This document shows, piece by piece, positions 138 to 21,067 of a stretch of DNA of 64,000 bases. The position numbers were made by a program, and so were the translations under genes. Under the pieces are notes generated by a model, which saw only the letters and a list, made by a program, of their open reading frames with translations, did no database searches and had not been told where the DNA came from. This DNA is from Bacteroidia bacterium (GTDB lineage Bacteria > Bacteroidota > Bacteroidia > CAIKAF01), in NCBI GenBank assembly GCA_030427255.1, contig JAUHWY010000017.1:1-64000 (forward strand), in the 5' to 3' direction. Every line of letters begins with the position of its first letter. Position 1 is the first letter of the stretch.

Positions 138-270
138 GCATAACAGCACCTTTCCCAAAGTGGCGGTTCAGTGGTTAAATCAAATTTTGGGCTTCTATCA
201 AAGTTTTTGCTTGGTTGACAGTGAAGTGTTTCAAAACCGCCACCTTCGGGTAGCTGCAAAACCGCTAAGC
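138..270 (+). repeat. attC-like palindromic element A
   Basis: This is the first of three related elements (also 707-836 and 1572-1700). It opens with GCATAAC and closes with GCTAAGC, each one mismatch from the integron core consensus RYYYAAC...GTTRRRY. The outer arms are complementary: AAAGTGGCGGTT near the left pairs with AAACCGCCACCTT near the right. The right half shares a block with the other two copies (GACAG, then a short gap, then AAACCGCCAC, then GCAAAACCG). The ORF at 281 begins about 10 bases after the right core, as expected for a cassette. Bases 1-137 upstream hold no gene I can support. An open frame at 25-279 runs straight through this element and is probably not real. Confidence 0.55.
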
Positions 271-280
271 TCAATTTAGA

Positions 281-706
281 ATGGAAAATCGACGAAGTTA
301 TATAGTAGGATTTTTGTTACTCTCGTCAATACATTGGGCGACAATAATTCTGACCGCAATTCTGACTAATGTTGTTGGAATATTCATTGATTATGAATTC
401 GTGCCTTGGTTCGAAGTCTTTATGATTGTTATGGAATTGCTAGTTGCATTCAAAATATTATATAAAGACAGGTTTTTGAACTTGGATAATAGAGACTTAA
501 TAAAGCTAACCTTGACAGCAATAGGATTATTCCTCACTTCACAATTCAGTTATTTACTTGAATACCAACCCGGATTGTGCGGTAATGATTTTTTAGACGG
601 AGTATTTGAAACAAGGAAAAAGAATGAGTTTTATTCGCAGATAGTTGAGAGAATAGTATTATCGATTGCGATTGTCTATTTTGTAATGAAGAGAATTAGA
701 AACTGA
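281..706 (+). CDS. small multi-pass membrane protein, cassette gene
   Basis: The product is a 141-residue membrane protein that I do not recognise. Hydrophobic segments lie at about residues 9-32, 42-60, 75-92 and 122-137, so four helices are likely. A charged loop (ETRKKNEFY) precedes the last one. The gene fills the space between two attC-like elements: its ATG is about 10 bases after element A, and its TGA at 704-706 touches element B. That tight packing, the AT-rich composition and the lack of a visible promoter fit an integron-type cassette read from an upstream promoter. No family assignment is possible by eye. Confidence 0.65.
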   Translation: MENRRSYIVGFLLLSSIHWATIILTAILTNVVGIFIDYEFVPWFEVFMIVMELLVAFKILYKDRFLNLDNRDLIKLTLTAIGLFLTSQFSYLLEYQPGLCGNDFLDGVFETRKKNEFYSQIVERIVLSIAIVYFVMKRIRN

Positions 707-836
707 ACCTAACAGCGCACATAGCTTATGGCGGCAGAAAGGCTACCAGCAAGGCATTCGCTTTGTGGCAAGCTTTGGTTTCAATGGACAGGAATGTGGT
801 TTGAAACCGCCACAAGCCATATGCAAACCGTTAGAA
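707..836 (+). repeat. attC-like palindromic element B
   Basis: This is the clearest of the three elements. It starts with ACCTAAC, a perfect RYYYAAC core, and ends with GTTAGAA, one mismatch from GTTRRRY. The two ends form an imperfect palindrome: CTAAC, GCACATAG and CTTATGGCGGC on the left match the reverse complement of the right arm, which reads CTAAC, GCATATGG and CTTGTGGCGGT. The block GGACAGGAA...GAAACCGCCACAA.CCATATGC is shared with element C. The right core is fused to the tail of a recombinase gene (see 830-980). Confidence 0.65.
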
Positions 837-980
837 ACCGGCTGCTTCAACAGCTTCGTCCCCCGTTCGATGATTTGTGAAAACAAGGTATATTAGCAAA
901 GAGTAAACGAATGAGGAAAACCATCACTTTGACTACCATTGAGGGTGGATAAATGAGGTTCAGCCTCATTTATAAATGAG
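830..980 (+). repeat. displaced 3' tail of a tyrosine recombinase plus leader, copy 1
   Basis: These 151 bases match 17613-17763 on the opposite strand with 12 substitutions and no gaps. The first part, GTTAG to the TGA at 878-880, still reads as the end of a recombinase (RNRLLQQLRPPFDDL, then stop). It begins exactly at the GTTAG of attC-like element B. A leader of about 100 bases follows. It carries TATATTAG, one base from the Bacteroidota -7 box, and a short ORF starting at 911 (MRKTITLTTIEGG, stop). It also has a perfect hairpin, AAATGAGG/CCTCATTT, at 951-971, just before the gene at 996. A promoter role for the leader is inference. Confidence 0.75.
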
Positions 981-995
981 TTGTACAGCATTTAA

Positions 996-1589
996 ATGAA
1001 CGACATTAAAAAGAAATATCAGGTATTTAGAAATGAACCTTTTCCAGAAGGAATCGCAGGAGAAGAAATTCACGGAATTGACTTGGTAATGTTGGACGCT
1101 GAAACGGCAGGAATAATTGATAAATTCATTGGATATAAATACAAGTTGACAAGAACTGATTTTGACCAATTAAAAAGGTTGTCGGTTGAATTAAAAACTG
1201 TAACCAAGGAACTTGACGGACAATCACGGACATACTTCTCGACTTTATGGAATCTTGCTGAAAGAATTGTTAGCGACTTGACCCAAACTAATAGATTGAT
1301 TGAAAATTCTGATTCCGAAAACCTACATAAAAAATGGAAACAACACTTTGACAGCATAAGGGAAATTCTAAATGAATGGGCCCCCCCTGGCGTAGCGGAC
1401 AGCGTTGACGATGAGTATGATTCAATAAATTTTGCTGCCTATTCTACTTTTCTTCAAAATGGAGACACGGAATCAGTCAAAATCGCTATTCGGAAATATT
1501 TAAAGGAAGCAATGGAAATTGACGAGACAGACGAAAAATTAAACGAATTATCAGAAAGAATAAAGAACGCTGTACAACAACGCATATAG
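996..1589 (+). CDS. small DEYD-motif protein, cassette gene
   Basis: The product is a soluble protein of 197 residues. The N-terminal 110 residues are helical and charged. The C-terminal part has the pattern W-x-P-x-G-V followed by DDEYDSI, a helix, and a 'YLKEAMEI' segment. That layout is familiar from small bacterial proteins of unknown role with a WDPxG...DEYD...L..G...YL signature, some of which resemble immunity proteins. I cannot name a function. The gene lies 15 bases after the recombinase-tail leader, and its stop codon falls inside attC-like element C. ATG at 996 is the only good start. Confidence 0.7.
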   Translation: MNDIKKKYQVFRNEPFPEGIAGEEIHGIDLVMLDAETAGIIDKFIGYKYKLTRTDFDQLKRLSVELKTVTKELDGQSRTYFSTLWNLAERIVSDLTQTNRLIENSDSENLHKKWKQHFDSIREILNEWAPPGVADSVDDEYDSINFAAYSTFLQNGDTESVKIAIRKYLKEAMEIDETDEKLNELSERIKNAVQQRI

Positions 1590-1700
1590 CTTATGGATAG
1601 TGAACGGCTACCAGCAAGGTTTTCGCCATTTAATCAAGTTCGTCTAGAGCGGACAGGAAAGTAATCGAAACCGCCACAATCCATATGCGAATCGTTATCG
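1572..1700 (+). repeat. attC-like palindromic element C
   Basis: This is the third member of the family. It opens with GTACAAC and closes with GTTATCG, both weaker cores than in element B. The interior is clearly related: GCATATAGCTTATGG on the left mirrors CCATATGCGAATCGTTA on the right, and GGACAGGAAAGT..TCGAAACCGCCACAATCCATATGC matches element B. The stop codon of the preceding gene (1587-1589) is inside the element. No cassette-sized gene follows; the next gene is hsdR. Confidence 0.6.
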
Positions 1701-1786: not shown

Positions 1787-4588
1787 ATGACTTCAACGAT
1801 GAATCAAAATCCGGAGCAAAAAGCGCGTGACAACATCGACAAAATGTTGGTTGAAGCGGGTTGGGTTGTCCAGTCCCTAAGGCAGGTGGATTTGTCTGCT
1901 GCTAAAGGTGTGGCTGTACGTGAATATCAAACGGACCTTGGACCTGCCGACTATGTTTTGTTCGTGGATAGAAAACCTGTGGGGGTAATTGAAGCAAAGC
2001 GAGAAGAACAAGGAGAAAAACTCACCATTCATGAGGACCAATCAAAAGACTATGCAGAAAGCAAACTCAAATACCTGAATAACGACCCGTTACCATTTGT
2101 TTACGAAAGTACGGGAGTTTTAACGCGATTCACAGACTACCGAGACCCAAAGCCTAGATCAAGACCCATATTTCATTTCCATAAGCCTGAAACTCTGTTG
2201 CAATGGAGTGTACAGGAAAAAACGCTGCGAGCTAGACTGAAGGAAATGCCGGAACTGGAGGAAGAAGGCTTAAGACCGGCGCAGATTAAAGCCATACGAA
2301 ATCTCGAATCATCTTTTAAAGACAATAGACCAAAAGCCCTAATTCAAATGGCCACAGGTGCAGGTAAAACATTCACCGCTTGCACTTTTGTCTATCGCTT
2401 GCTAAAGCATGCAGATGCCAAACGCATTCTGTTTGTGGTAGACACCAAAAATTTGGGCGAACAAGCTGAACAAGAGTTTTTGAAATACCAACCGACTGAC
2501 GATAACCGAAAGTTCACAGAACTCTACAACGTACAGCGTTTGAATTCGAGTTATATCGCTTCGGACAGTCAGGTGTGTATTTCGACCATTCAACGCCTCT
2601 ACTCCATTTTGAAAGGGGAAGAACTCGAAGAAGCTGCCGAAGAAGAAAACCCAAACGAAAAAAGCTGGCAATGGCAAAAGAAAGAACCCATGCCCGTAGA
2701 GTACAATGCCAAAAATCCAATCGAGCAATTTGATTTCATCATCATTGACGAGTGCCACCGCTCCATTTACAATTTATGGAAGCAAGTACTCGACTATTAT
2801 GATGCTTTTCTTATTGGCTTAACCGCTACACCCGACAAGCGCACCTTTGGTTTCTTCAACGAAAATGTGGTGAGTGAATATACCTACGAAGAATCGGTGG
2901 CCGATGGGGTGAATGTGCCTTATGACGTCTTTACCATTGAGACGGAAATCACCCAAGCGGGTGCCAAAATCAAGGCGAAGGAATATGTGGACAAACGCGA
3001 AAAATTGACCCGAAAGAAACGCTGGGAACGATTGGACGAAGATTATGAATACACCTCCAATAAGCTGGATAAAGATGTTGTCAATCCCAGTCAGATCCGT
3101 CACATTATAAAAGCGTACCGAGACGCTTTGCCAAGCATTTTCCCCGATCGTTTGGATGAACAGGGAGCCTTTGAAGTGCCTAAAACATTGGTGTTTGCCA
3201 AAACCGATAGCCATGCGGACGATATCATCCAAATCATCCGGGAAGAATTTGGGGAAGGAAATGACTTCTGCAAAAAGGTGACCTATAAAATTGAGGAAGA
3301 CCCCAAATCGGTGTTGAACCGCTTCCGGAATTCATGGAATCCGCGCATTGCTGTTACGGTAGATATGATTGCAACGGGAACAGATGTAAAGCCTTTGGAA
3401 GTGCTGCTTTTTATGCGAGACGTTAAGAGCATCAATTATTTTGAACAGATGAAAGGTCGGGGAACCCGAACCATCAATTTTGATGATTTGAAACGCGTTA
3501 CCCGAACAGCCAAACATACCAAAACCCACTTTGTAATTATTGATGCTGTAGGTGCCACCAAATCCAAAAAAACAGATAGCCGTCCCTTAGAACGAAAACC
3601 CACTACGCCTTTAAAAGACCTGCTTGGCGCAGTAAAAATGGGTGTTCAAGACGAAGACCTGTTCACTTCCTTGGCGAACCGATTGATTCGTTTGGAAAAA
3701 CAACTGACAGTAGACGAAAAGGCAAAATTTGAAGAACTTACAAAAGGCAAAACACTGAACCAAGCCACCAAAGACCTACTCAATGCCTTCGACCCGGATT
3801 TGATTGAAAGTAAGACACAAGCATTGGTCCATCAGATTCCGGTGCAAGACCGAACGCCGGCCAAAGAAGAGGCATGCCGCAAGCAAGCCCAAAACGAATT
3901 GGCCGTCCATGCGGCTAAGACCTTTACCGGAGCACTGAACGAATACATTGAAAATGTCCGTAAGGTACATGAGCAGATCATTGACACGGTAAACACCGAC
4001 AAAATTCTGCGTGCCGAGTGGGACAGTTTTACCAAGGACAAGGCGGCAGAAGTGGTCAAGAGCTTCACCGAATTTATGGAAGCCCACAAGGATGAGATTA
4101 CCGCATTGAGCATTTTTTATGACCAACCCTACCGAAGACGCGAGCTCACCTTTAAGATGATCAAAGACCTGATGGACAAACTAAGGCTGGAAAAGCCATT
4201 GCTTGCTCCGCATTATGTGTGGGAAGCCTATGCCCAACTCGAAGAAGTAAAAGGCAATAGCCCCAAAAACGATTTGGTGGCCTTGGTTTCCTTAATCCGA
4301 AGGGTTACAGGCATTGACCAACAACTCACGCCTTTCAACAAAACGGTAGACAAAAATTTTCAGGAATGGGTTTTTGGCAAGCAAGCCGGAGCACTTAAAT
4401 TTACCGATGCACAAATGCAGTGGTTAAGAATGCTCAAAGACCATATTGCCAGCAGTTTTCATGTAGACATAGACGATTTGGATTATACCCCTTTTGATGC
4501 ACAAGGGGGCAGAGGAAAGATGTATGAACTGTTTGGGGATAAAATGAATGCCATTATTGTGGAGTTAAATGAGGCCTTGGCGGCATAG
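1787..4588 (+). CDS. hsdR: type I restriction enzyme R subunit (HsdR)
   Basis: The 933-residue product is the ATP-dependent translocase and nuclease of a type I restriction complex. The N-terminal PD-(D/E)xK nuclease is visible as D55 (PADY) and E69-A-K71 (VIEAK). The SF2 motor follows with Walker A ATGAGKT (189-195), DECH (321-324) and LIGLTATP. A second RecA domain carries QMKGRGTR. Length and order fit the HsdR family, and all key residues are present. A second in-frame ATG lies four codons in (1799), and either could be used. It is the first gene of a co-directional operon whose other genes encode the S and M subunits. Confidence 0.95.
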   Translation: MTSTMNQNPEQKARDNIDKMLVEAGWVVQSLRQVDLSAAKGVAVREYQTDLGPADYVLFVDRKPVGVIEAKREEQGEKLTIHEDQSKDYAESKLKYLNNDPLPFVYESTGVLTRFTDYRDPKPRSRPIFHFHKPETLLQWSVQEKTLRARLKEMPELEEEGLRPAQIKAIRNLESSFKDNRPKALIQMATGAGKTFTACTFVYRLLKHADAKRILFVVDTKNLGEQAEQEFLKYQPTDDNRKFTELYNVQRLNSSYIASDSQVCISTIQRLYSILKGEELEEAAEEENPNEKSWQWQKKEPMPVEYNAKNPIEQFDFIIIDECHRSIYNLWKQVLDYYDAFLIGLTATPDKRTFGFFNENVVSEYTYEESVADGVNVPYDVFTIETEITQAGAKIKAKEYVDKREKLTRKKRWERLDEDYEYTSNKLDKDVVNPSQIRHIIKAYRDALPSIFPDRLDEQGAFEVPKTLVFAKTDSHADDIIQIIREEFGEGNDFCKKVTYKIEEDPKSVLNRFRNSWNPRIAVTVDMIATGTDVKPLEVLLFMRDVKSINYFEQMKGRGTRTINFDDLKRVTRTAKHTKTHFVIIDAVGATKSKKTDSRPLERKPTTPLKDLLGAVKMGVQDEDLFTSLANRLIRLEKQLTVDEKAKFEELTKGKTLNQATKDLLNAFDPDLIESKTQALVHQIPVQDRTPAKEEACRKQAQNELAVHAAKTFTGALNEYIENVRKVHEQIIDTVNTDKILRAEWDSFTKDKAAEVVKSFTEFMEAHKDEITALSIFYDQPYRRRELTFKMIKDLMDKLRLEKPLLAPHYVWEAYAQLEEVKGNSPKNDLVALVSLIRRVTGIDQQLTPFNKTVDKNFQEWVFGKQAGALKFTDAQMQWLRMLKDHIASSFHVDIDDLDYTPFDAQGGRGKMYELFGDKMNAIIVELNEALAA

Positions 4589-4615
4589 TCTTGACCTGGA
4601 TTTAAGGATAGTATA

Positions 4616-5032
4616 ATGAACCTGATGAATGCGGACAAGATGAAATGGGATGACATAAACGAATTAACAAGAAAGATTATTGGATGTGCTATGGAGGTAC
4701 ACAATCAGTTGGGCAATGGTTTTCAGGAAGTTATCTATCAACGTTCATTGGCCATAGAGTTTGGCATACAGGGGCTTTCCTTTGCGCGGGAACTGGAAAT
4801 GGCTTTGCACTACAAAGGTGAGCGTGTTGGCACCCGAAGAGTCGATTTTTTTGTAGAAGACCTTGTAATGGTTGAAATTAAAGCCCTTGAAAAACTAGAA
4901 GGTGTACACAAAGCACAAGCCATCAATTACTGCGAAGCATATAATATTGCCGATGGGCTGCTGATTAACTTTGGCGCTCAATCCTTGCAATTTCATCGGG
5001 TTTATAACAAAAAATTAAAAAAGAAATCATGA
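4616..5032 (+). CDS. GxxExxY family protein inside the RM operon
   Basis: The 138-residue product matches the GxxExxY family, a PD-(D/E)xK-like fold found next to many Bacteroidota genes. The eponymous motif is GNGFQEVIY (about residues 38-46). RRVDFFVED...MVEIKAL follows, giving the D...E-x-K arrangement of the nuclease fold. KAQAINYCEA and LLINFG near the end are also family-typical. It lies 27 bases after hsdR, and its TGA overlaps the ATG of a 41-codon ORF (ATGA), so it is translationally linked to hsdS. An accessory nuclease or DNA-binding role in the RM system is inference. Confidence 0.85.
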   Translation: MNLMNADKMKWDDINELTRKIIGCAMEVHNQLGNGFQEVIYQRSLAIEFGIQGLSFARELEMALHYKGERVGTRRVDFFVEDLVMVEIKALEKLEGVHKAQAINYCEAYNIADGLLINFGAQSLQFHRVYNKKLKKKS

Positions 5033-5154
5033 CCCCATCAAACCATGCCCCCTCAAATCCTGCCCCGTCAAATCTTGACCATCCTGAAATCAAACAAATC
5101 CTGTTCAGACAAATGAACGAAACAATTAAACTAAACGAAGTACTGGCTGCCTAA
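5029..5154 (+). CDS. 41-residue ORF coupled to hsdS
   Basis: This short reading frame has 41 codons. Its ATG overlaps the TGA of the GxxExxY gene (ATGA at 5029-5032), and the last base of its TAA is the first base of the hsdS ATG (TAATG at 5152-5156). The N-terminal half is low complexity with a repeated PSNxAPSN pattern, and the C-terminal half (PEIKQILFRQ, MNETIKLNEVLAA) looks like one amphipathic helix. Both junctions are typical of translational coupling, so it is at least translated. It may be a small accessory peptide or only a coupling device that loads ribosomes onto hsdS. I know no family for it. Confidence 0.55.
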   Translation: MTPSNHAPSNPAPSNLDHPEIKQILFRQMNETIKLNEVLAA

Positions 5155-6512
5155 TGAGAGAAGATTGGATTGAAATAGAATTAGATGAAGTAGCTGAAGT
5201 TAATCCTAAAAAACCACAAGCTGATGACGAATTAGAAGTGACATTTTTACCAATGCCATTGGTTGAAGAGGAAACAGGCCGTTATCATCTTAAAGAAACT
5301 CGGAAGTTTTCTCAAGTTAAGAAGGGGTATACAGGTTTCATTGAAGGAGATGTTTTATTTGCCAAGATTACTCCTTGCATGGAGAATGGTAAAATAGCCG
5401 TAATAAACAATTTGATAAACTCAGTTGGCTTTGGTTCAACGGAATTCCATGTTCTAAGGCCATCATTTGCACTAGAAAAGAAATACCTTTTCTATTTTTT
5501 GGTCCGAAAAGCTTTCCGCGGGTACGCTCAAAGAAAGATGACAGGCAGTGCTGGTCAGTTGCGTGTTCCCAAAAGCGTACTGCAGGCAGCTAATATCCCA
5601 ATCGCCCCCCTCCCCGAACAACGCGCCATAGTCGCCAAAATAGAGCAGCTTTTCAGCGAGTTGGACAATGGCATAGCCAACCTCAATGCCGCCAAAGATA
5701 AACTGGAAATCTACCGCCAGGCCGTGCTGAAAAAAGCGTTTGAGGGGGCATTTACTGTTGAATGGCGCTTCAATCAGGATTTCGATACAACTTGGGAAGC
5801 CACTGTATTAGGCGAAATTGCGAAATGGGGTTCTGGAGGGACGCCATCAAGAAAAATAGATGAATATTTCACAGGTGATATCCCATGGCTAAAGACAGGC
5901 GAACTTGGGCCTATGTACGTAGATGATGCTGAAGAAAAAATCACTGAAGAAGCGATTCTGAAATCCAACGCTAAAGTTTTCCCGAAAGGTTCGGTTGGCA
6001 TTGCAATGTATGGTGCAACGATTGGCAAAACCTCTATTTTCAATGCTCCTTTGGCAACTAATCAAGCTTGTGCTGTTGCCCAACCAAATGAAGATATTAA
6101 TGCTGTATTCCTTTATTATTATTTACTCTCCCAGAAGTATGATTTAATTAGGAAAGGTCAGGGAGGAGCCCAACCGAATATCTCCCAAGGTGTTTTGAAA
6201 GAGCATCCCATCTGTGTTCCAAGAATTGAAGAACAAGAGCAAATTATTTGCGAAATCGAATCCCGCCTTTCGGTTTGCGACAATATTTTGGCCAACATCG
6301 AAGAAGGACTAGAAAAAAGTGAAGCCTTGCGGCAAAGCATCCTCAAACAGGCCTTTGAAGGAAAGTTGTTGAGTGAGGAAGAACTGGAAGCTTGCAGAAA
6401 GGAACCGGATTGGGAGCCGGCGGAAAAGTTGTTGGCCCGTATTGAGCGAAGCCGAAATGAACGGATTAAGAACGAAGAGAAGGTAAAACCCCAAAAAGTA
6501 AGCCATGCCTGA
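5154..6512 (+). CDS. hsdS: type I restriction specificity subunit (HsdS)
   Basis: The 452-residue product is the DNA-recognition subunit. It has the usual two target-recognition domains, each followed by a conserved coiled coil. The first spacer starts with PLPEQRAIVAKIEQLF at about residue 156 and runs through an Ala/Lys-rich helix to AFEG. The second starts with RIEEQEQIICEIESRL and ends at KQAFEGKLL. TRD2 has the typical WGSGGTPSR...IPWLKTGEL pattern. The two TRDs differ, so a bipartite asymmetric target is expected; the sequence recognised cannot be read from here. The 3' end overlaps the DUF4062 gene by 8 bases. Confidence 0.93.
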   Translation: MREDWIEIELDEVAEVNPKKPQADDELEVTFLPMPLVEEETGRYHLKETRKFSQVKKGYTGFIEGDVLFAKITPCMENGKIAVINNLINSVGFGSTEFHVLRPSFALEKKYLFYFLVRKAFRGYAQRKMTGSAGQLRVPKSVLQAANIPIAPLPEQRAIVAKIEQLFSELDNGIANLNAAKDKLEIYRQAVLKKAFEGAFTVEWRFNQDFDTTWEATVLGEIAKWGSGGTPSRKIDEYFTGDIPWLKTGELGPMYVDDAEEKITEEAILKSNAKVFPKGSVGIAMYGATIGKTSIFNAPLATNQACAVAQPNEDINAVFLYYYLLSQKYDLIRKGQGGAQPNISQGVLKEHPICVPRIEEQEQIICEIESRLSVCDNILANIEEGLEKSEALRQSILKQAFEGKLLSEEELEACRKEPDWEPAEKLLARIERSRNERIKNEEKVKPQKVSHA

Positions 6513-7044
6513 TGCACCGCTAAAAATAATGGTGTCCTCTACGGTCTATGGTTCAGAAAGTGATTTGGACCAGATAAAGTATATCCTTGAAGGGTTCAAT
6601 TATGAGGTTGTCATGTCTAAGGAAGGGAATATTTATGTAGGAATTGATGATGACCCTGAAGATGCTTGCCTAAAAGCAGTTGAAGATTGTGATTTATTCT
6701 TTGGGATAATTTTCCCAAGATATGGTTCGGGCATCACCCATAAGGAGTTCAAAAAGGCCGTTGAGCTTAATAAGCCACGGTTTTTTATAGCGCATCAATA
6801 CATCGAGTACACAAGCAAACTAATGGCGCAGTTTATGTACGATGAAAATACGATTAGGAATGATTTTGATATCCAACCAACAAGCGTACTAGATAGTATT
6901 AAAGTGGTGGATATGTACAATGATGTAAGAGCTAAATGGGTGCAGCCTTTTTTCAAGACAAGTGAAATTCAGGTCTTTCTTGAAACTCAATTTAGAGACC
7001 ATGAAAGACGAAGACAAGAAATAGAAGCAAGAAAAAATGAATAG
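6505..7044 (+). CDS. DUF4062 (TIR-like fold) protein embedded in the RM operon
   Basis: The 179-residue product has the DUF4062 signature: an opening beta strand MVSSTVYG with a following DLDQI helix, then ACLKAVEDCDLFFGIIFPRYGSG, then a conserved Glu in THKEFKKA and KPRFFIAH. DUF4062 is generally placed with the TIR/SEFIR-like folds, several of which hydrolyse NAD in antiviral signalling; activity here is inference. The C-terminal tail is a charged helix. The gene overlaps hsdS by 8 bases and the next gene by 8 bases, so the trio hsdS-DUF4062-AlbA is tightly coupled. Such partners may sense failure or inhibition of the restriction complex. Confidence 0.85.
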   Translation: MPDAPLKIMVSSTVYGSESDLDQIKYILEGFNYEVVMSKEGNIYVGIDDDPEDACLKAVEDCDLFFGIIFPRYGSGITHKEFKKAVELNKPRFFIAHQYIEYTSKLMAQFMYDENTIRNDFDIQPTSVLDSIKVVDMYNDVRAKWVQPFFKTSEIQVFLETQFRDHERRRQEIEARKNE

Positions 7045-8557
7045 CGAACAACTCATAAAAAGCCTCCTAAAACAAGGTGAGGGCGAGCAGCTTGAGTTTA
7101 CACATGTTGTTCGCAAAGATGCCATTGGCAAAAGCATTTGTGCCTTTCTAAACCATGAAGGTGGTCAGGTACTCATTGGTATTTCTGACGATAAAAAAGT
7201 AGTCGGCATTGCTGATGCTGAAAAGTGGGAAAAGGAGTTAACCGATTACCTAAATACATCCATCATTCCAGAAGCCCCGGTGATGGTTTCCGTTGAGCGT
7301 GTAGGCACAAAACAAGTCCTATTGGTTAAAGTATGGGCCGGCTCCAAGCAGCCCTACATTTATGATGGCAGCATATACTTCCGTAAGGGCCAAAGCACGG
7401 AAAAAGCAAGTTCGCAGCAGATTTCAGACTTAATACATAATCGCCAGAAAGCAGAGTTGCACTGGGAACGTAAATTGGCACTGGGCGTTGAATTAGAAGA
7501 TTTGGATATAAACGAAATTCAAAAAACCATTGAACGGTCCATCGACGAAAGCAAGCTGGACGAGAGCAAAAGAAATCCGATGGACTTCCTGACCCATTTC
7601 GGACTTTTCCAGAATGGTCATTTCACCCATGCTGCTGTAGTGCTCTTTGCAAAAAATCCTGCTCGTTTTATACCCCAAACGCGTGTTCGGGTGGCATTTC
7701 TCGAAAAAGGAAAAACGGCGGATGAGTTTGTAGATGATAAAATTCTCGATGGCAATTTGTTCAAGAACATCTTAGCGGTTCAAGACTTCTTCGAGAAACA
7801 TTTACGCACCACCAGAAAATTCAGTGAAAAGGAATGGGAGCGGCAGGATGAATATGTGGTGCCTATGTCGGCATTGCGAGAAGGTGTGATGAACGCCTTG
7901 GTGCATCGGGATTACAGCTTGCCATCAGCTTCCATGTCGGTGATTATTTACAGCGATAGAATTGAAGTCTTAAACTCCGGCAAGTCACCATTGAAAGCAG
8001 CGGAGCTAAAAAAGAGCCACTTATCGCTTCCGGTAAATCCTGACATAGCCCACATGGTATTTCTGAGAGGCTACATAGAGAAGATTGGTAGAGGTACCAT
8101 AAAAATCATGGATGCTTGTAAAGCTGCCGGTCTTAAAGCACCTAAATGGACAACTACAGATACTAGCGTAAAACTTGCTTTTCCTCTTAATGTAAAACTT
8201 GGCGGAGCTAGTGACCGAGCTTCTGATCTAGCAAATGACCGAGCTGTTGACCGAACGATTGACCGAGCTATTGACCGAGCTATTGACCGAGCTATTGACC
8301 GAGCTATTGACCGAGCTACGATGGATACAAAAAAGAAACTTGCCATATTGTTAAGGGCAATCGTCCAAGATGAAGGAGGAAGAAATCCAGATTATCAAAA
8401 AGCGACAAATCTTGGAAGTGAAAGTACAATAAAGAGGTATCTCGATCAACTAAGAGAGATAGACTTCATTGAATTTAAAGGAACAGCGCCTCAAACGGGC
8501 GGCTACTTCATTACTGACAAACTGAAAAAAATAATTAGTCAAAAACCTACAGATTAA
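7037..8557 (+). CDS. AlbA_2/HATPase ATP-binding protein with DRAI repeats
   Basis: The 506-residue product begins with an AlbA_2 (Schlafen-like) domain: GEGEQLEFTH at residues 14-23, then FLNHEGGQVLIGISDD and VYFRKG-type strands. A GHKL ATPase-like region follows (REGVMNALVHRDYS at about 280, then SDRIEVLNSGK, and RGTIKIMDACKAAG). This is the architecture annotated as transcriptional regulator or ATP-binding protein. A linker of about 25 residues made of repeated D-R-A-I joins a C-terminal winged-helix-like domain (SESTIKRYLDQLREIDFIEFKG). It overlaps the DUF4062 gene and precedes hsdM by 33 bases. It may regulate the operon or act with DUF4062 as a guard module; neither is proven. Confidence 0.85.
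   Translation: MNSEQLIKSLLKQGEGEQLEFTHVVRKDAIGKSICAFLNHEGGQVLIGISDDKKVVGIADAEKWEKELTDYLNTSIIPEAPVMVSVERVGTKQVLLVKVWAGSKQPYIYDGSIYFRKGQSTEKASSQQISDLIHNRQKAELHWERKLALGVELEDLDINEIQKTIERSIDESKLDESKRNPMDFLTHFGLFQNGHFTHAAVVLFAKNPARFIPQTRVRVAFLEKGKTADEFVDDKILDGNLFKNILAVQDFFEKHLRTTRKFSEKEWERQDEYVVPMSALREGVMNALVHRDYSLPSASMSVIIYSDRIEVLNSGKSPLKAAELKKSHLSLPVNPDIAHMVFLRGYIEKIGRGTIKIMDACKAAGLKAPKWTTTDTSVKLAFPLNVKLGGASDRASDLANDRAVDRTIDRAIDRAIDRAIDRAIDRATMDTKKKLAILLRAIVQDEGGRNPDYQKATNLGSESTIKRYLDQLREIDFIEFKGTAPQTGGYFITDKLKKIISQKPTD
8213..8317 (+). repeat. 12-bp in-frame tandem repeat (DRAI linker)
   Basis: Inside the AlbA_2/HATPase gene the unit GACCGAGCTATT is repeated perfectly at 8261, 8273, 8285 and 8297. 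A fifth variant unit sits at 8309, and diverged units (DRAS, DLAN, DRAV, DRTI) lie upstream. The unit is a multiple of three, so slippage would change linker length by four residues without breaking the frame. Confidence 0.9.
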
Positions 8558-12726: not shown

Positions 12727-13875
12727 ATGAGAAAACAAGCCATGCGCAGCCTTATGGTGCTATGCTTAGGAGCAGGAAGCGCAAATGCACAAGCCCAACT
12801 TTCCTTTTCCGATGTAAGCTACTGGGTAGGCAGCGGCAGCGACTCCTCCGTTTTGGTGGTGGACTTTAAAGACGCCAGCTGGGACAGCTCCTATGCCTGG
12901 GGCTTTTTACACAACGGCAACGCAACGGCCGAGCAAATGCTCAACGCCATTGCCGCGGCAGATCCCAACTTTAGCATCAATGCAAGCGGCGGGTTTTTAA
13001 ACGACATAAGTTACGGGAACCATAGCGGCATTGGCGGAACCAACAACTTTTATTGGTCTACCTGGTCGGGTACCAATGCCTCCAACTGGAATTCAAATTT
13101 AGGTATTGGAGAAAGCCTTAGCAACGGTGCTTGGTTTGGCTGTGCCTTTACCGACTTCAATCCGGCCTTAGCCCCCGGAAACCCCATACCGGCCTTTGAT
13201 CCGGCGCGTTTCACGGCCCAAAACGTCGACTTTTGGGTGGGCAGCGGCAGCGACAGCTGCGTTTTGGTCATTGACTTTTTGGATGGAACGGGAAGCGCCT
13301 CCTTTGCTTGGGGCTATGCCTATTCCGGCATTCAAACGGGCGAGCAAATGCTCAACGCCATTGCCGCAGCCGATCCCATGCTCAGCGTGGGCATAGCAGG
13401 AGGTTTTTTAAACGACATCAGCTACGGCAGTTATTCGGGCATTGGCGGAAGCCCCAACTATTGGAGCACCTGGAGTGCAAGCAATTTGGGCAATTGGAGC
13501 TTCAATATGGGCGTAGGCGACACCCTGCAAAACGGCAGTTTTTTCGGTTGTTCCTATACCGATTTTAGTCCTGCCTTGCGCCCCGGTTATCCTACTGCAG
13601 CAAGCCCTGTGGCCGGCATGGAAGCCAAAGCCTCCATCTCCGTGGAAGTGTATCCCAACCCTTCCTCGGATTTCTTGTACCTAGCATCCAACGATGCTGC
13701 TTTAGAAACTTGGGAGGAAGCCTTTATTCTTGACCTTTCCGGTCGTAGGCTATGGCACCAAAGCATGTTGGAGGTCTCTACGCCCATTTTCATTCAGCAG
13801 CTCCCGGCAGGTAGCTATTTTTTAATGCTGAAGCAGGGCAATACGCTGCATAGCGCTCAATTCTTGAAGCAATGA
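12727..13875 (+). CDS. two-repeat T9SS surface protein of the B12 operon
   Basis: The secreted protein has about 382 residues. A signal peptide (LMVLCLGAGSANAQA) precedes two copies of a domain of about 140 residues. Each copy opens with (Y/F)WVGSGSDS.VLV(V/I)DF, continues with S(Y/F)AWG and EQMLNAIAAADP, then GGFLNDISYG..SGIGG and (Y)WSTW, and closes with GCxxTDFxPAL.PG(N/Y)P. The last 80 residues are a type A T9SS sorting domain (VEVYPNPSSD ... LPAGSYFLMLK). A longer frame starts at 12619, but ATG 12727 begins the signal peptide. Co-expression with btuB suggests surface capture or handling of corrinoids; this is inference, as I know no biochemical role for the repeat. The stop overlaps the next ATG. 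Confidence 0.85.
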   Translation: MRKQAMRSLMVLCLGAGSANAQAQLSFSDVSYWVGSGSDSSVLVVDFKDASWDSSYAWGFLHNGNATAEQMLNAIAAADPNFSINASGGFLNDISYGNHSGIGGTNNFYWSTWSGTNASNWNSNLGIGESLSNGAWFGCAFTDFNPALAPGNPIPAFDPARFTAQNVDFWVGSGSDSCVLVIDFLDGTGSASFAWGYAYSGIQTGEQMLNAIAAADPMLSVGIAGGFLNDISYGSYSGIGGSPNYWSTWSASNLGNWSFNMGVGDTLQNGSFFGCSYTDFSPALRPGYPTAASPVAGMEAKASISVEVYPNPSSDFLYLASNDAALETWEEAFILDLSGRRLWHQSMLEVSTPIFIQQLPAGSYFLMLKQGNTLHSAQFLKQ

Positions 13876-14864
13876 AAGGCCTAAGCACTTTTGCCCTATT
13901 GTTTTTCCTGAGCCTTTCGGCGGCGGCGCAATTTCCGCCTGCCGCCGGGCAGCCCGGGTCCACGGCCATTCACAAAGACAGCAGCCTCATTGCTGCTTGG
14001 GCGGTTTCGTGTTCGGTACAGCGCGGATATCAAGACATTTCAGACACGGCCTTGGGTTTGGCTAACGTGGGCGACAGCAGCATGGCCGTGGGGCCCGCAG
14101 GTGCAGCCGGGGTGGTGAGCTTAGGCGATGGAGGCCAAGCCATATTGAGCTTTGCGGAGCCTATACAAAATGGTCCCGGCTGGGATTTTGCCGTTTTCGA
14201 AAACAGCTTCAGCGACGATTATTTGGAGTTGGCTTTTGTGGAAGTCAGCTCGGATGGGCTGAACTTCTTCCGCTTTCCGGCCACTTCCTTAACCCAAGAC
14301 AGTCTGCAAGTCGGAAGCTTTGGAAGCCTGGACCCCACCCAAATCAACAACCTGGCCGGAAAATACCGCGCCCTGTTTGGCACGCCCTTCGATTTGGACG
14401 AGCTAAGTGGAACCCCCGGACTGGATTTGGAGGCCATAAGCCACGTCAAAATTATGGATGTGGTGGGCTCCCTTCAAGACAGCTTTGCTACTTACGACCA
14501 TTTGGGCAACAAAATCAACGACCCTTGGAGCACTCCTTTCCCTTCCGGAGGCTTTGATTTGGATGCCGTGGCGGTGCTTAACCATCCCTCGGCTGCTACG
14601 CATAGCCCGGTTCAAAACAGCGGCATAAAGCTTTTTCCCAATCCGGCCGGGCAGCAAGTCCACCTTCGGTGGAACCACCCCGAAGCGCTGCAATTCCTAG
14701 GGCTTTACAATGCCCTTGGGCAATTGGTGTACCAAGTGCCGGAACCGGGGACGGCTTCGGAATTCAGCATTTCGGTAGCGGCTTTCCCTTCCGGAAACTA
14801 TATTTGGCTTGCACAAAGCAAAAGCCATCGAATGACCCAAAAACTGAGGATTCAGCATGATTAA
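13872..14864 (+). CDS. T9SS surface protein of the B12 operon
   Basis: The 330-residue protein has a signal peptide (LFFLSLSAAAQ). Its core domain has the pattern VSLGDGGQAILSF..PI.NGPGWDFAVFENSF.DD(Y/F)LELAFVEVSSDG..FFRFPA, and later LDLEAISHVKI(M)DVVGS and GGFDLDAVAVLN. The C-terminus is a type A T9SS domain (KLFPNPAGQQVHL ... FPSGNYIWL). The core resembles beta-sandwich surface domains that I have seen beside B12 receptors in Bacteroidota, but I have no name for it. It overlaps both neighbours (ATGA at 13872 and 8 bases at 14857), so it belongs to the same operon. Confidence 0.83.
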   Translation: MKGLSTFALLFFLSLSAAAQFPPAAGQPGSTAIHKDSSLIAAWAVSCSVQRGYQDISDTALGLANVGDSSMAVGPAGAAGVVSLGDGGQAILSFAEPIQNGPGWDFAVFENSFSDDYLELAFVEVSSDGLNFFRFPATSLTQDSLQVGSFGSLDPTQINNLAGKYRALFGTPFDLDELSGTPGLDLEAISHVKIMDVVGSLQDSFATYDHLGNKINDPWSTPFPSGGFDLDAVAVLNHPSAATHSPVQNSGIKLFPNPAGQQVHLRWNHPEALQFLGLYNALGQLVYQVPEPGTASEFSISVAAFPSGNYIWLAQSKSHRMTQKLRIQHD

Positions 14865-15894
14865 ACCCAGCCGGCTATGGATTTTGGGCCTTTGTTTGGC
14901 CCTTAGTGCTTGCATAAAGGACGGTCCCGACAGCAACAATCCGCCCATTTCTACCGACGGCCAAAAGGGAGTATTCATTGCCAACGAAGGCAACTTCCAG
15001 TTTGGAAATGCATCGGTCAGTTATTTTCAGGAAGGTTGGGACGAGGCCGTCGAAGACCTGTTTGCATCGGCCAACAACCGGCCTTTGGGCGATGTATGTC
15101 AATCCCTTTGTTTCTTCAACGGCATGGTATATGCCGTACTCAACAATTCCGGCAAAATAGAGATTGTACAAAAGGATAATTTTAATGAACTACACACCAT
15201 TTCGGGCTTGCCATCGCCCCGCTACATGCTGCCCGTAAGCAACGCCAAAGCCTATGTAAGCGATTTGTATGCCGATGCCATTGCCGTGGTGAACCTCAGC
15301 AGCCACACCGTTGAGGGCAGCATTCCTTGTCCCGGTTGGACCGAAGCTATGGCCCTGGCCTATGGCAAAGCCTTCGTAACCAACAGGTCGAGTGCGTATG
15401 TATATGTGATTGAAACCGCCGGCGACCAAATCGTAGACAGCATTGAGGTAGGCTTTGGGGCCAATTCCCTGGTTCAGGACAAAAACGGCAAACTTTGGGT
15501 CTTGAGCAGCGGCAGCAGCGGGCAAGGGCAAGCGGCCCGGCTCCACCGCATCGACCCGGCGCAACTAGAAGTAGAGCAAAGCCTAAGTTTTAGCGACCCC
15601 GGCGCAGGACCCGGCCGGCTAAGCCTCAACGGCGGCGGCGACACCCTGTATTATTTGGACGGAGACCTGTATCGATGCAGCATCGATGCAGGCCAACTGC
15701 CCACGCAGCCCTTCATTGCCGCGGAGGGCCGCAATTTATATGGCTTAGGAATCCATCCCCAAAGCAGCGAAATATACCTTGCCGACGCAAAAGACTACGT
15801 ACAGCGCGGCGAAGTGTACATCTACCGTCCCGACGGCAGTTTGCGCCGCAGTTTTTTAGCGGGAATCATTCCGGGCCACATTTATTTTGATTAG
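14857..15894 (+). CDS. BtuG-like beta-propeller lipoprotein
   Basis: The 345-residue lipoprotein has a lipobox at LALSAC (Cys about residue 20). A seven-bladed propeller of the YncE/DUF5074 type follows: GVFIANEGNFQFGNASVSYF, NNSGKIEIVQKD, SGLPSPRYML, AYVSDLYADAIAVVNL, WTEAMALAYGKAFVTN and KLWVLSSG. In Bacteroides, BtuG is a propeller lipoprotein that sits on BtuB and binds B12 very tightly. This gene has the same size, fold signature and operon position, so it is the likely counterpart. Direct evidence of binding is absent. Confidence 0.85.
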   Translation: MIKPSRLWILGLCLALSACIKDGPDSNNPPISTDGQKGVFIANEGNFQFGNASVSYFQEGWDEAVEDLFASANNRPLGDVCQSLCFFNGMVYAVLNNSGKIEIVQKDNFNELHTISGLPSPRYMLPVSNAKAYVSDLYADAIAVVNLSSHTVEGSIPCPGWTEAMALAYGKAFVTNRSSAYVYVIETAGDQIVDSIEVGFGANSLVQDKNGKLWVLSSGSSGQGQAARLHRIDPAQLEVEQSLSFSDPGAGPGRLSLNGGGDTLYYLDGDLYRCSIDAGQLPTQPFIAAEGRNLYGLGIHPQSSEIYLADAKDYVQRGEVYIYRPDGSLRRSFLAGIIPGHIYFD

Positions 15895-16034
15895 GGCTTT
15901 GCGTGTATTATGCCGGGAAATGGGGGGCTTTGAATTTTTGATCTTAAGGAGGGGATTGTTGTCCGAGAGGTCTGTTGGGCCTTTCTTCCATAGGAAAAGC
16001 AAGCTCCGTATCCGCCCCTTGGCTGCGGTCAGCC

Positions 16035-16114
16035 CCTGGCGTCCCCAAGGCGCTCTAAGGCTGCGGGTTCCGCCCAAAGTTGGAATCCTCGCCCAAGAGC
16101 GCCTAGGGGCCACC
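16035..16114. repeat. GC-rich long hairpin downstream of the B12 operon
   Basis: CCTGGCGTCCCCAAGGCGCTCT at 16035-16056 pairs with AGAGCGCCTAGGGGCCACC at 16096-16114. The gap 15895-16207 between the convergent B12 operon and the ankyrin gene holds nothing else I can name. The hairpin could act as a bidirectional terminator-like barrier, though it lacks a T-run. Confidence 0.55.
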
Positions 16115-16207
16115 TAGTGGCGGGCCCTCCGTTTGGGGCGGGAGGCCATTCTTTGGAGGTTCAATGCATTTAGTTGCTTAAAGCGGAGGTTTTGCTCCTC
16201 ATAACTT

Positions 16208-16897
16208 CTATTTGTTAAGCGCTTGCCGAAGAATACTTCTTATTCTTTTCGTTGGTGCAAGCTCTTCCAATGCTCTATTGTCATGTTTGGGCAGTGGCCC
16301 TACCTTAACTCCATGTTTAATTAAGCATGCCAGTATTTCCGGTTGGGACTCCATAACAGCAAGATGCGTTAAGCTATAACCTGCCCTGTCTTTAATATGT
16401 ATATCTAGCCCTAGGTCTATAAACAGGTTTAGCAAAGCCAATTGTCCATAGGTTACGGCATCAATCAACACGCTGTGGAAAAGGTAGTTTTCTTTTTCTT
16501 GTTCATTTTTCAAATGAAATTGCACCAAGGTTTTTGCGCAATCGAGAGCTCCATGACAGGTAGCCAGGTTCAGAGGGCTTTTTTGAGCGGCATTGTAACG
16601 GATGGGCAAGGCCTTGTTTGCCAATAACAGATGTAAAGTTTCAAGGTCGTTTGATTGGGCTGCAAAATGCAAGGCAACATCGCCATGATTGTCGGCTAAG
16701 TTCGGGTCTGCATTATACTTGGTCAACAAACACTTCACAATTGGAGGGACAAATCTAGACGAGGCATAATGGAGCAAAGTCCAACCACCCTCGGTGTCTT
16801 GAAAATTTATCCACTCCCCTTTAAATTCGGTTTGGAAATAGGCTATATCTCCCTGATCAATGGCATCTCTTGCTTGTGTGAATATGGTGTTTTTCAT
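16208..16897 (-). CDS. ankyrin-repeat protein
   Basis: The product is a protein of about 229 residues made of ankyrin repeats: GGWTLLHYASS, DNHGDVALHFAAQSNDLETLHLLLAN, SPLNLATCHGALDCAKTLVQFHL, VLIDAVTYGQLALLNLFIDLGLDI and AGYSLTHLAVMESQPEILACLIKHG. It has no signal peptide, so it should be cytosolic and mediate protein binding; the partner is unknown. The open frame continues to 17074, but the added N-terminus is low quality, and ATG 16897 begins a good helical start (MKNTIFTQARDAIDQGD). Confidence 0.8.
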   Translation of the reverse strand: MKNTIFTQARDAIDQGDIAYFQTEFKGEWINFQDTEGGWTLLHYASSRFVPPIVKCLLTKYNADPNLADNHGDVALHFAAQSNDLETLHLLLANKALPIRYNAAQKSPLNLATCHGALDCAKTLVQFHLKNEQEKENYLFHSVLIDAVTYGQLALLNLFIDLGLDIHIKDRAGYSLTHLAVMESQPEILACLIKHGVKVGPLPKHDNRALEELAPTKRIRSILRQALNK

Positions 16898-16962
16898 TCG
16901 AATACTAACGGTATGTGGTCCAGTCTTTTTTCTTGGGCTTTGGGTTCGATAGGTTTTTTGTC

Positions 16963-17157
16963 CTAAAGCTTCCGGAATAAGCAGCAAAGCGCCGGAATAT
17001 AAGCACAAAGTTCCATGTTTGGGGTTTTCAGACCCGCCTGCGGTGATTGGGCTACATGGGACAACAAGAGCCATTTATTTTGGTTTTGAACTTGTCTTAA
17101 GAAGTCGACCACATTAGTAGTGTCGTTAATAAAATAACAGCTAATTTTTGTTGGCAT
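16963..17157 (-). CDS. possible 64-residue ORF of unknown origin
   Basis: This frame starts at the base next to the TAA of the lipoprotein gene and encodes 64 residues (begins MPTKISCYFINDTTNVVDF). I recognise no family. Part of it (DNA encoding QVQNQNKWLLLS) has a degenerate look-alike at about 18310-18360 on the same strand, where the frame is broken. It may therefore be the end of a duplicated, decaying gene rather than a working one. Confidence 0.25.
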   Translation of the reverse strand: MPTKISCYFINDTTNVVDFLRQVQNQNKWLLLSHVAQSPQAGLKTPNMELCAYIPALCCLFRKL

Positions 17158-17600
17158 TAGTTTTTCTTTATTCCAAACCCTTTTGGTGCCATGAGTTTTC
17201 CTGAATCATACATGTTTATATAGATAGAAACGGTGTCCTTTGATCCTTCCCAAGTCACTCTATAATTATCAAGCATAACTTCATTACCAAAAATTGCCTT
17301 TTCACTTTTAATAGGGCAACAACTACCTGATCTAAAATACGAAATAGCTTCTCCATTTGGGCCAGAAAGTGCATTTAGATATCTTCTTTCGTTTTTAGGT
17401 CCACTATCTTCACCACCAACTTCAACAGGGTTTTTTGGAGAAAATCCATATGAAGGGTCTGAAGATATTTCAGTAATCAGGAAAGTATTATCATCTAAAA
17501 GAGTGTGTTTAATATTCTTAGTTACATTCTTAGTAGTTGAGCAAGAAAGAAAACCAAGAATAATACATGTCATCAATAATTTATTCTTCATATTTTTCAT
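17157..17600 (-). CDS. small lipoprotein of the family often mislabelled KDO-8-P synthase
   Basis: The 147-residue lipoprotein has its lipobox at ILGFLSC. The mature part has the recognisable pattern YGFSPKNPVEVGG, GPKNERRYLNALSGPNGE, YFRSGSCCP, DNYRVTWEG, LYINMYDSG-like IYINMYDSGKL and APKGFG. Many Bacteroidota databases label such proteins 2-dehydro-3-deoxyphosphooctonate aldolase, but nothing here resembles that enzyme, so the label should be ignored. The true function is unknown. The gene is preceded by the recombinase tail and leader also seen at 830-980, which suggests it arrived as a cassette next to the recombinase gene. Confidence 0.82.
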   Translation of the reverse strand: MKNMKNKLLMTCIILGFLSCSTTKNVTKNIKHTLLDDNTFLITEISSDPSYGFSPKNPVEVGGEDSGPKNERRYLNALSGPNGEAISYFRSGSCCPIKSEKAIFGNEVMLDNYRVTWEGSKDTVSIYINMYDSGKLMAPKGFGIKKN

Positions 17601-17612
17601 AATTAATGCCCA

Positions 17613-17763
17613 CTCGTTTATAAATGAGGCTGAACCTCATTTGTCCACCCTCAATGGTAGGCAATGTGATGGTTTTCTTCATTCGTTTACTCTTTGCTAA
17701 TATAAGTTGTTTTCACAAATCATCGAATGGAGAACGAACCTGTTGAAGCAGCCGGTTGCTAAC
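17613..17763 (-). repeat. recombinase tail plus leader, copy 2
   Basis: This is the minus-strand copy of the 830-980 segment (12 substitutions in 151 bases, no gaps). It contains the recombinase stop codon, TATATTAG, a short ORF beginning MKKTITLPTIEGG and the AAATGAGG/CCTCATTT hairpin, and it ends 12 bases before the lipoprotein ATG. Here the short ORF reads on past the point where copy 1 has a stop, to 33 codons (ending NYEKYEE), overlapping the lipoprotein start. The match with copy 1 stops at GTTAG (17759-17763). Confidence 0.8.
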
Positions 17764-17820
17764 ATGCGTGTAATTCTCTGTTGTCTTGCTGCTCTTATGC
17801 CCAAGCAATTTAGTGGGCGG
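17713..17820 (-). pseudogene. 3' remnant of a tyrosine recombinase (integrase)
   Basis: The minus strand encodes KLLGHKSSKTTENYTHVSN followed by RLLQQVRSPFDDL and a stop at 17713-17715. LGHxS..TT..YTHV is the C-terminal box of tyrosine recombinases, with the conserved His and the catalytic Tyr, and SPFDDL is a typical ending of Bacteroidota XerD/IntI-like enzymes. Nothing upstream continues the protein: the frame enters a G-run at about 17830 and then an 86-bp tandem array. The gene has thus lost its first ~90 percent. Confidence 0.85.
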
Positions 17821-17888
17821 CCAATAAGGGGGAGGGGGGGGGTAAAAAAGTATATCCTATACCTTTTTCAGGTATATCGGGGGGCAAA

Positions 17889-18250
17889 AAATGGATAGCA
17901 TATACCTCGCTTGGGTATATTAAGGGTCATAAAGTGGATAGCATATTCAGAATTTTGGTAATGCATTGCTTATGAAATGGATAGCATATACCTTGCTTGG
18001 GTAATGCATTGATCAAAAAGTGGATAGCATATCCGGAATTTAGGTATTGGATTGCTTAAGAAATGGATAGCATATACCTCGCTTGGGTAATGCATTGGCC
18101 AAAAAGTGGATAGCATATCCGGAATTTAGGTAATGGATTGCTTAAGAAATGGATAGCATATACCTCGCTGGGGTAATGCATTGGTCAAAAAGTGAATAGC
18201 ATATCCGGAACTTAGTTAAAACATTGCTAAGAAAATGGATAGCAGACACT
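17889..18250. repeat. 86-bp tandem array (two alternating 43-bp half-units)
   Basis: Units start at 17889, 17975, 18061 and 18147, with a decaying fifth from 18233. Each 86-bp unit is two half-units of 43 bases that both contain TGGATAGCATAT. One is followed by ACCTCGCTTGGGTAATGCATTG, the other by CCGGAATTTAGGTAATGGATTG. The TGGATAGCATAT motif therefore recurs about every 43 bases (roughly four helical turns). The array lies between the recombinase remnant and the HEPN pair. It has the look of iterons or a protein-binding array, but no replication gene is nearby. Confidence 0.9.
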
Positions 18251-20580: not shown

Positions 20581-20912
20581 TGCAGCGCCAAAGGAGTTGA
20601 TTCCGCCTGGAAGGCCTAGTAGCTGGCCGGTTTTTCCAAGGCTAAAACTCTTAGCCTTTTGCCACTTATGTGCTAAAACAGAAAGATTCGGTGCCGAGTG
20701 GCTCCGGTCTTAGCGAGTTTCCATTTGGGGATTGTTTTTTGGGTTGGGCCGAATACTACATGGAGTCTATCGTCCCCAGCAAATGCCAAACTAAAGATGT
20801 AGAGATTTTTACTTTAATCTGACATTGATAATCAGCAGATTAGCCACAAACATGTAGAGATTTTTTTCTTTAGAGAATTTCCTAAACGGGGCTTAACGCG
20901 CCCCGGCGGAGG

Positions 20913-21022
20913 CCAATTAGCCTGCCGAAGTGGGGTGCTCAGCCGCTGCGGGGGCAAGAGCGACCACAGGAAGCTCCTTGCCCCCGCTTAGCGGCGTAGC
21001 AAGCCCACAAGGCAGCTAATGG
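20913..21022. repeat. 110-bp GC-rich hairpin
   Basis: The outer arms CCAATTAGCCTGCC (20913) and GGCAGCTAATGG (21011-21022) pair. Inside, CCGCTGCGGGGGCAAG pairs with CTTGCCCCCGCTTAGCGG around an AGCGACCACAGGAAGCTC loop. It occupies the gap 20581-21067, which has no supported gene, and is followed directly by a MITE-like element. Confidence 0.65.
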
Positions 21023-21067
21023 CAGGAGACGGATAAGGCGCTCAAATAATAATACAAACAAAAAAAA

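Follow-up and report, generated by a model that had tools for sequence, protein, structure and literature searches.

The first stretch of contig C39 (JAUHWY010000017.1) of a Bacteroidia bacterium, from base 1 onward and 64,000 nt long (the window), opens with three related elements that bound short genes. We asked whether these elements are recombination sites of gene cassettes and which enzyme would move them. An earlier sequence-only reading had taken them for a small cassette array that either an IntI-type or a XerCD-type system could serve. Our analysis argues that the elements, together with leaders found beside them, are very probably attC-type and attI-type sites of an integron-like system widespread in Bacteroidota, and that the likely agent is a non-IntI tyrosine recombinase of about 350-390 aa.

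The worn sites of the window fell below the threshold of our palindrome finder and were placed by homology and by a cassette-end test. Site A (142-266, + strand) runs for 125 nt from AAC to a decayed GTT, now GCT; it is homologous to attC-type sites of an array in Schleiferia and of other loci, and its length fits the 124-nt rule seen there. Its 3' end, GCTAAGCTCA, matches the GTTAGGTTCA expected from site B at 7/10 positions with all differences being transitions, so that we regarded the site as decayed, in agreement with the change from GTT to GCT. Site B (704-832, +) begins with an R'' decamer (704-713) and extends from AAC (711-713) to GTT (830-832), giving 122 nt between its AAC...GTT limits (711-832). 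Site C (1569-1696, +; repeat families D1 and D2) has its R'' decamer at 1569-1578, AAC at 1576-1578 and GTT at 1694-1696, giving limits of 1576-1696 and 121 nt. The shared blocks confirmed that the three elements are related, with 51 nt (80%) and 31 nt (90%) common to B and C and 27 nt (78%) common to A and B. The gene geometry was also as had been described, with an ATG at 281, a stop at 704-706 against B and a stop at 1587-1589 inside C. Bottom-strand folding, which had been suggested as a check, was strong for B (z -3.3; 0/200 shuffles as good), with less pronounced values for A (z -1.4) and for C (z -1.7). An Rfam search returned two chance-level matches only and no attC. With self hits excluded, related copies elsewhere in the genome reached a best E value of 1.6e-21 for A and 6.6e-28 for B (contigs C35, C42 and C12), and both site subtypes had copies on contigs C35, C42, C12, C44 and C13. 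Several of these copies lie near contig ends, as does the start of the window.

We then annotated the sequence between the sites. The cassette 1 gene (281-706, +) encodes 141 aa with no Pfam or NCBIfam match, and the ends of its unit match at 7/10. Site B is followed by the 3' end of a recombinase-gene fossil (830-880, +; ..RNRLLQQLRPPFDDL stop), which comprises the last ~15 codons of the gene and has the same sequence as a minus-strand tail at 17811-17713. The two are joined exactly at GTTAG, a motif that the recombinase gene itself contains. This junction resembles attG-type off-target insertion, as if site B had recombined at a non-attI GTT, a comparison drawn from the sequence of one junction. 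An attI-type leader (881-982, +) comes next, with its junction GTT at 980-982. The leader recurs behind other recombinase tails in the same genome at 86-95% identity, and homology between the copies ends at GTT, where unrelated genes start. Judged by this pattern, the leader copies look like an attI site with different first cassettes. The cassette 2 gene (996-1589, +; 197 aa, no known family) does not directly follow B, since the tail and leader lie in between. The small array that had been claimed thus stands as far as its sites and cassettes are concerned, and is not one simple three-site array. Genes resembling a type I restriction-modification system (1787-8557) directly follow site C; a search of 30 kb downstream turned up no partner for the flank 3' of site C, so these genes could not be called a cassette.

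A second locus was found at about 17.15-17.81 kb on the minus strand. It contains a second recombinase-gene tail (17713-17811; the last 32 residues, TIGR02249 positions 284-315) and a second attI-type leader (17611-17712), which is 93% identical to 881-982 and has its junction GTT changed to GTG at 17613-17611. The cassette gene behind it (17157-17600, -) encodes a 147-aa protein whose N-terminus suggests a lipoprotein-like start. When reverse-complemented, the R'' decamer TAATGCCAAC of a decayed attC (17150-17159, -) matches the junction decamer GTGGGCATTA at 9/10 positions, and a clear right arm was not seen for this attC. A short repeated motif (GGTATATGCTATCCATTT and variants) occupies about 17820-18250 (-), directly upstream of the second tail.

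An IntI search of the own genome yielded no canonical IntI over the cut-off and several C-terminal fragments of one recombinase, most of them ending in SPFDDL or a close variant. The genome carries no fewer than eight attI-like leaders, the majority of them behind gene tails; a genome of the same genus (G006) carries about twelve recombinase tails. No intact recombinase of the new family was present in the own-genome assembly, whose contig breaks leave room for one. AttC-type sites and cassettes are thus present without an intact enzyme, and leaders and tails remain at several scattered loci. Because of this, the own-genome copies would be linked to the enzyme through the gene tails and through relatives. 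The enzyme missing from this genome would not be IntI. The scattered leaders, two of which lie in the window, still carry one or a few cassettes each, so that the window shows a largely decayed, dispersed form of the cassette system. A separate palindromic dispersed repeat of ~170 nt, beginning with GGGCGCC (window 20873-21041, -), occurs after genes in about 27 genome copies, many of them followed by pairs of the motif AAATCTCTACAT about 60 nt apart. Five copies lie just upstream of a recombinase tail and attI leader, which hints that repeat, tail and attI together formed a unit that spread to other places in the genome by copying.

Closure of a cassette into a circle at G/TT requires the sequence just after the junction to be complementary to the sequence just before the AAC of its own attC. 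The cassette ends of the window, 980-989 (GTTGTACAGC) and 1569-1578 (GCTGTACAAC), were exact reverse complements (10/10). Across seven leaders of the own genome, the window's included, the ends matched at 10/10 in five and 9/10 in two, and for the six outside the window the partner decamer (9 or 10/10) lay within 2.7 kb; an eighth leader had an 8/10 partner at the end of its ORF. In the more worn sister genome G006, 3/8 leaders reached 9/10 vs 0.6 expected, the eight including two leaders on C35 of the own genome. Among relatives, in the flanks that the palindrome finder had ignored, 21/31 neighbouring site pairs matched at 6/7 or more vs 1.5 expected (maximum 6 in 2000 shuffles), as did 20/32 pairs of attI and first attC vs 1.0 expected. 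The remaining 10/31 neighbouring pairs showed no match, and missed sites could account for some of them. Such pairing is what circle closure at G/TT predicts.

The relatives came from one scan of 84,980 species genomes, which returned 165 of them; the 80 loci kept were all labelled Bacteroidota or lineages within it. Sites were called with a palindrome finder anchored on AAC...GTT, with outer flanks ignored, allowed lengths of 108-165 nt and controls. A covariance model built from a MAFFT alignment of 13 sites contained no base pairs, probably because aligners misplace the palindrome arms, and was not used. The results showed 65 sites downstream of the recombinase gene in the 80 loci, at 0.255/kb vs 0.0176/kb upstream and 0.031/kb in reversed sequence. 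With a stricter score of at least 14, the densities were 0.200/kb downstream, 0.0044 upstream and 0 in reversed sequence (45-fold enrichment), so that the density of palindromic sites downstream exceeds that upstream by a factor of about 15-45. Site length had a mode of 124 nt (32/65 exactly), and 57/65 sites followed a same-strand ORF whose end lay a median of 17 nt before AAC. An attI-like motif was present in 50/61 loci at a median of 100.5 nt after the recombinase stop, and the leader of the window matches it in position. Contigs ended within 3 kb downstream in 51/80 loci and upstream in 7, as repetitive arrays would cause. In Schleiferia thermophila, the array has a run of nine sites.

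The folding of these sites was also analysed. Their mean fold z was -4.1 against mononucleotide shuffles, and folding energy was lower on the bottom strand in 38/61 sites, which does not clearly single out that strand. The first pair lay at the same place in 50/61 hairpins, and unpaired bases piled up at positions 12-13. The hairpins thus share with attC sites the layout of an unpaired central spacer, extrahelical bases and a variable terminal structure (PMC8946536).

Signs of cassette movement were found in several arrays. On the circular plasmid of Chryseobacterium SNU WT5 (NZ_CP041688.1, locus L222), a 172-bp unit with no sizeable gene occurs four times in differing surroundings with its edges at GTT; one copy lies at attI, one has ATT at its end and one carries a single-base difference. 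The array of this plasmid also contains an IS110-family transposase and a group II intron maturase (13254-14255 and 15720-17036); IS110-family elements and group II introns are known to target integron attC sites. Between loci L130 and L131, which come from two genomes, neither the leader nor the 600 nt of recombinase gene compared shows any difference, and the sequences differ from GTT on. Likewise, L126 and L133 (96% identical) have the same leader followed by different cassettes from GTT. The cassette proteins are diverse, and some are related to PtuA-type ATPases, AbiU, GmrSD or nucleotidyltransferases; the cassette genes thus include relatives both of defence proteins and of antibiotic-modifying enzymes.

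We next characterized the recombinase itself. The intact gene of relatives encodes about 350-390 aa (366-380 aa in same-family relatives), lies directly upstream of the leader and retains the conserved tyrosine-recombinase motifs. Its scores on the integron-integrase model, 197-218, stay below the cut-off of 265, and the match breaks at the IntI insertion. About 42 residues of VchIntIA (2A3V) are missing from the recombinase, and XerA aligns to it without such a gap. The distance from the lysine motif to HxxR is 64-65 residues in the recombinase, 106 in IntI and 71-79 in the Xer proteins of these bacteria. In a tree, the recombinase was recovered as a single clade (SH-aLRT 97) that is separate both from IntI (100) and from XerC/XerD. 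Its placement relative to IntI and XerA was not firm, and some long branches make the deep joins unsure. A structure model had a mean pLDDT of 87.6 and a pTM of 0.56, at which relative domain placement is not firm; it was closest to IntI by Foldseek (2A3V, E 3e-16) and to XerA by Z (best 23.4). An N-terminal domain of ~70 residues matched HARP (PF07443) in 5/53 members (best E 0.007). Its best PDB profile match, a weak one, was the HARP structure 4o66 (E 0.027), to which Foldseek gave rank 7, E 0.39 and prob 0.54; among the structure matches listed by Z there was no fold for this domain, which is not evidence of absence. The similarity to HARP is therefore weak and unproven. In some genomes of other classes of the phylum (G113, G172, G299, G318 and others), canonical IntI and the new recombinase occur together; the open frame around some of the new-family genes in these classes spans ~500 aa, which suggests a longer N-terminus.

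The distribution of the two enzymes bears on a first alternative, a decayed canonical integron whose cassettes were made by an ordinary IntI that has since been lost, with the neighbouring recombinase being unrelated. In a phylum-wide sample, the recombinase was present in 38/394 genomes (about 10%), 18 of them of the same class as the window's organism, while canonical IntI over the cut-off occurred in 105/394 and in only one genome of that class. A search of the order for canonical IntI found nothing, and a search of it with the recombinase tail as query found the recombinase family. The attC layout, R-box motifs and cassette logic are integron-like, the tail fragments align with the C-terminal end of the IntI model, and the phylum's other classes commonly carry IntI. 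Against this, the enzyme next to attI in relatives is without the IntI-specific insertion and scores below the cut-off, IntI is nearly missing from the sampled genomes of the class, and the order of gene, leader and array is conserved over 80 loci. We consider a lost IntI very unlikely.

A second alternative is that host XerC/XerD move the cassettes, with some other function for the adjacent recombinase. The own genome has XerC- and XerD-like genes, and mobile elements that exploit XerCD exist. The sites, however, are hairpins of ~124 nt and not dif-like sites of ~28 bp, the arrays begin at a fixed distance after the new recombinase gene, and the tail of that gene travels with attI. The recombinase also scored far below the XerC/XerD model cut-offs and did not group with XerC or XerD. 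Movement by XerC/XerD is thus highly improbable, and neither of the two enzyme types that the sequence-only reading had allowed fits the results. That the elements are ordinary dispersed or terminator-like repeats without a role in recombination is hardly credible: they follow stop codons and share their genome with the unrelated ~170-nt repeat, yet complementary cassette ends, the same cassette at four positions and divergence at G/TT behind identical leaders would not be expected of such repeats. The same three features support attC-type sites bounding genes in the geometry of integron cassettes.

For the preferred reading, an integron-like system with a recombinase of its own, we propose the following mechanism, which builds on the site positions, G/TT edge, complementary ends, cassette variety at attI and recombinase association observed here. 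In the sequences, a leader lies behind the recombinase gene on the same strand, and homology between leaders stops between A and GTT about 100 nt past the stop codon. After the leader come cassettes of one or a few genes, each with a ~124-nt AAC...GTT palindrome; the GTT and following 7 nt at the start of a cassette are complementary, in reverse, to the 7 nt and AAC that open its own attC. Identical cassettes are found at several array positions, and identical attI leaders with different cassettes and an edge at GTT. The recombinase would bind the folded bottom-strand hairpin of attC, cut after AAC and between G and TT, and move cassettes in and out at attI. Structure recognition may use parts other than the absent IntI-specific insertion, possibly the ~70-residue N-terminal domain. 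By analogy with integrons, bottom-strand folding, single-strand recombination, circular intermediates and expression from the attI side would also be expected.

We compared this system with known ones. Like chromosomal and mobile integrons (IntI/attI/attC; VchIntIA, 2A3V), it has attI by the recombinase gene, AAC/GTT attC hairpins, a G/TT cut point, complementary cassette ends and diverse cassette genes, and 2A3V was the best Foldseek match. The new recombinase differs from the integron integrase in four respects: the ~41-residue IntI-specific insertion is absent, a further domain is present at the N-terminus, the clade is a separate one, and transcription of the gene runs in the cassette direction. 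XerA (NF040815, 5HXY), a chromosome-resolution enzyme, is the closest sequence model (202.5, 235.1 and 229.6 bits for three proteins against a curated cut-off of 220) and gave the best Z score, and it likewise has no IntI insertion; in contrast to XerA, the new recombinase gene heads cassette arrays and carries the N-terminal extension. Judged from its sequences, the system works like an integron; we do not class it as a canonical one, since a test for the domain that defines the integrase showed it to be absent.

To our knowledge, Bacteroidota have long been regarded as nearly integron-free. A survey with IntegronFinder 2 reported one complete integron in Bacteroidetes proper, in Salinibacter (PMC9024848), and IntegronFinder requires the IntI-specific domain (PMC9668308). 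In a survey of tyrosine recombinases, the insertion was described as essential for integron function and as not fully conserved in an integron-like subgroup (PMC8138268). No published description of the present cassette system was found in the literature searched, with preprints and most subscription journals outside its scope, and we provisionally regard the system as new. Tentatively, and with more doubt than conviction, we suggest that it may represent a second, IntI-independent integron lineage across Bacteroidota, in which folded attC is read without the IntI-specific domain, perhaps via a HARP-like domain, and in which the genus of the window's organism has scattered attI pads that hold cassettes at several loci.

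The recombinase system occurs on at least one plasmid. If the proposed system is real, a large cassette pool of Bacteroidota has so far gone uncounted. It would also make testable whether the IntI-specific domain is needed to use folded attC sites or is one of two solutions.
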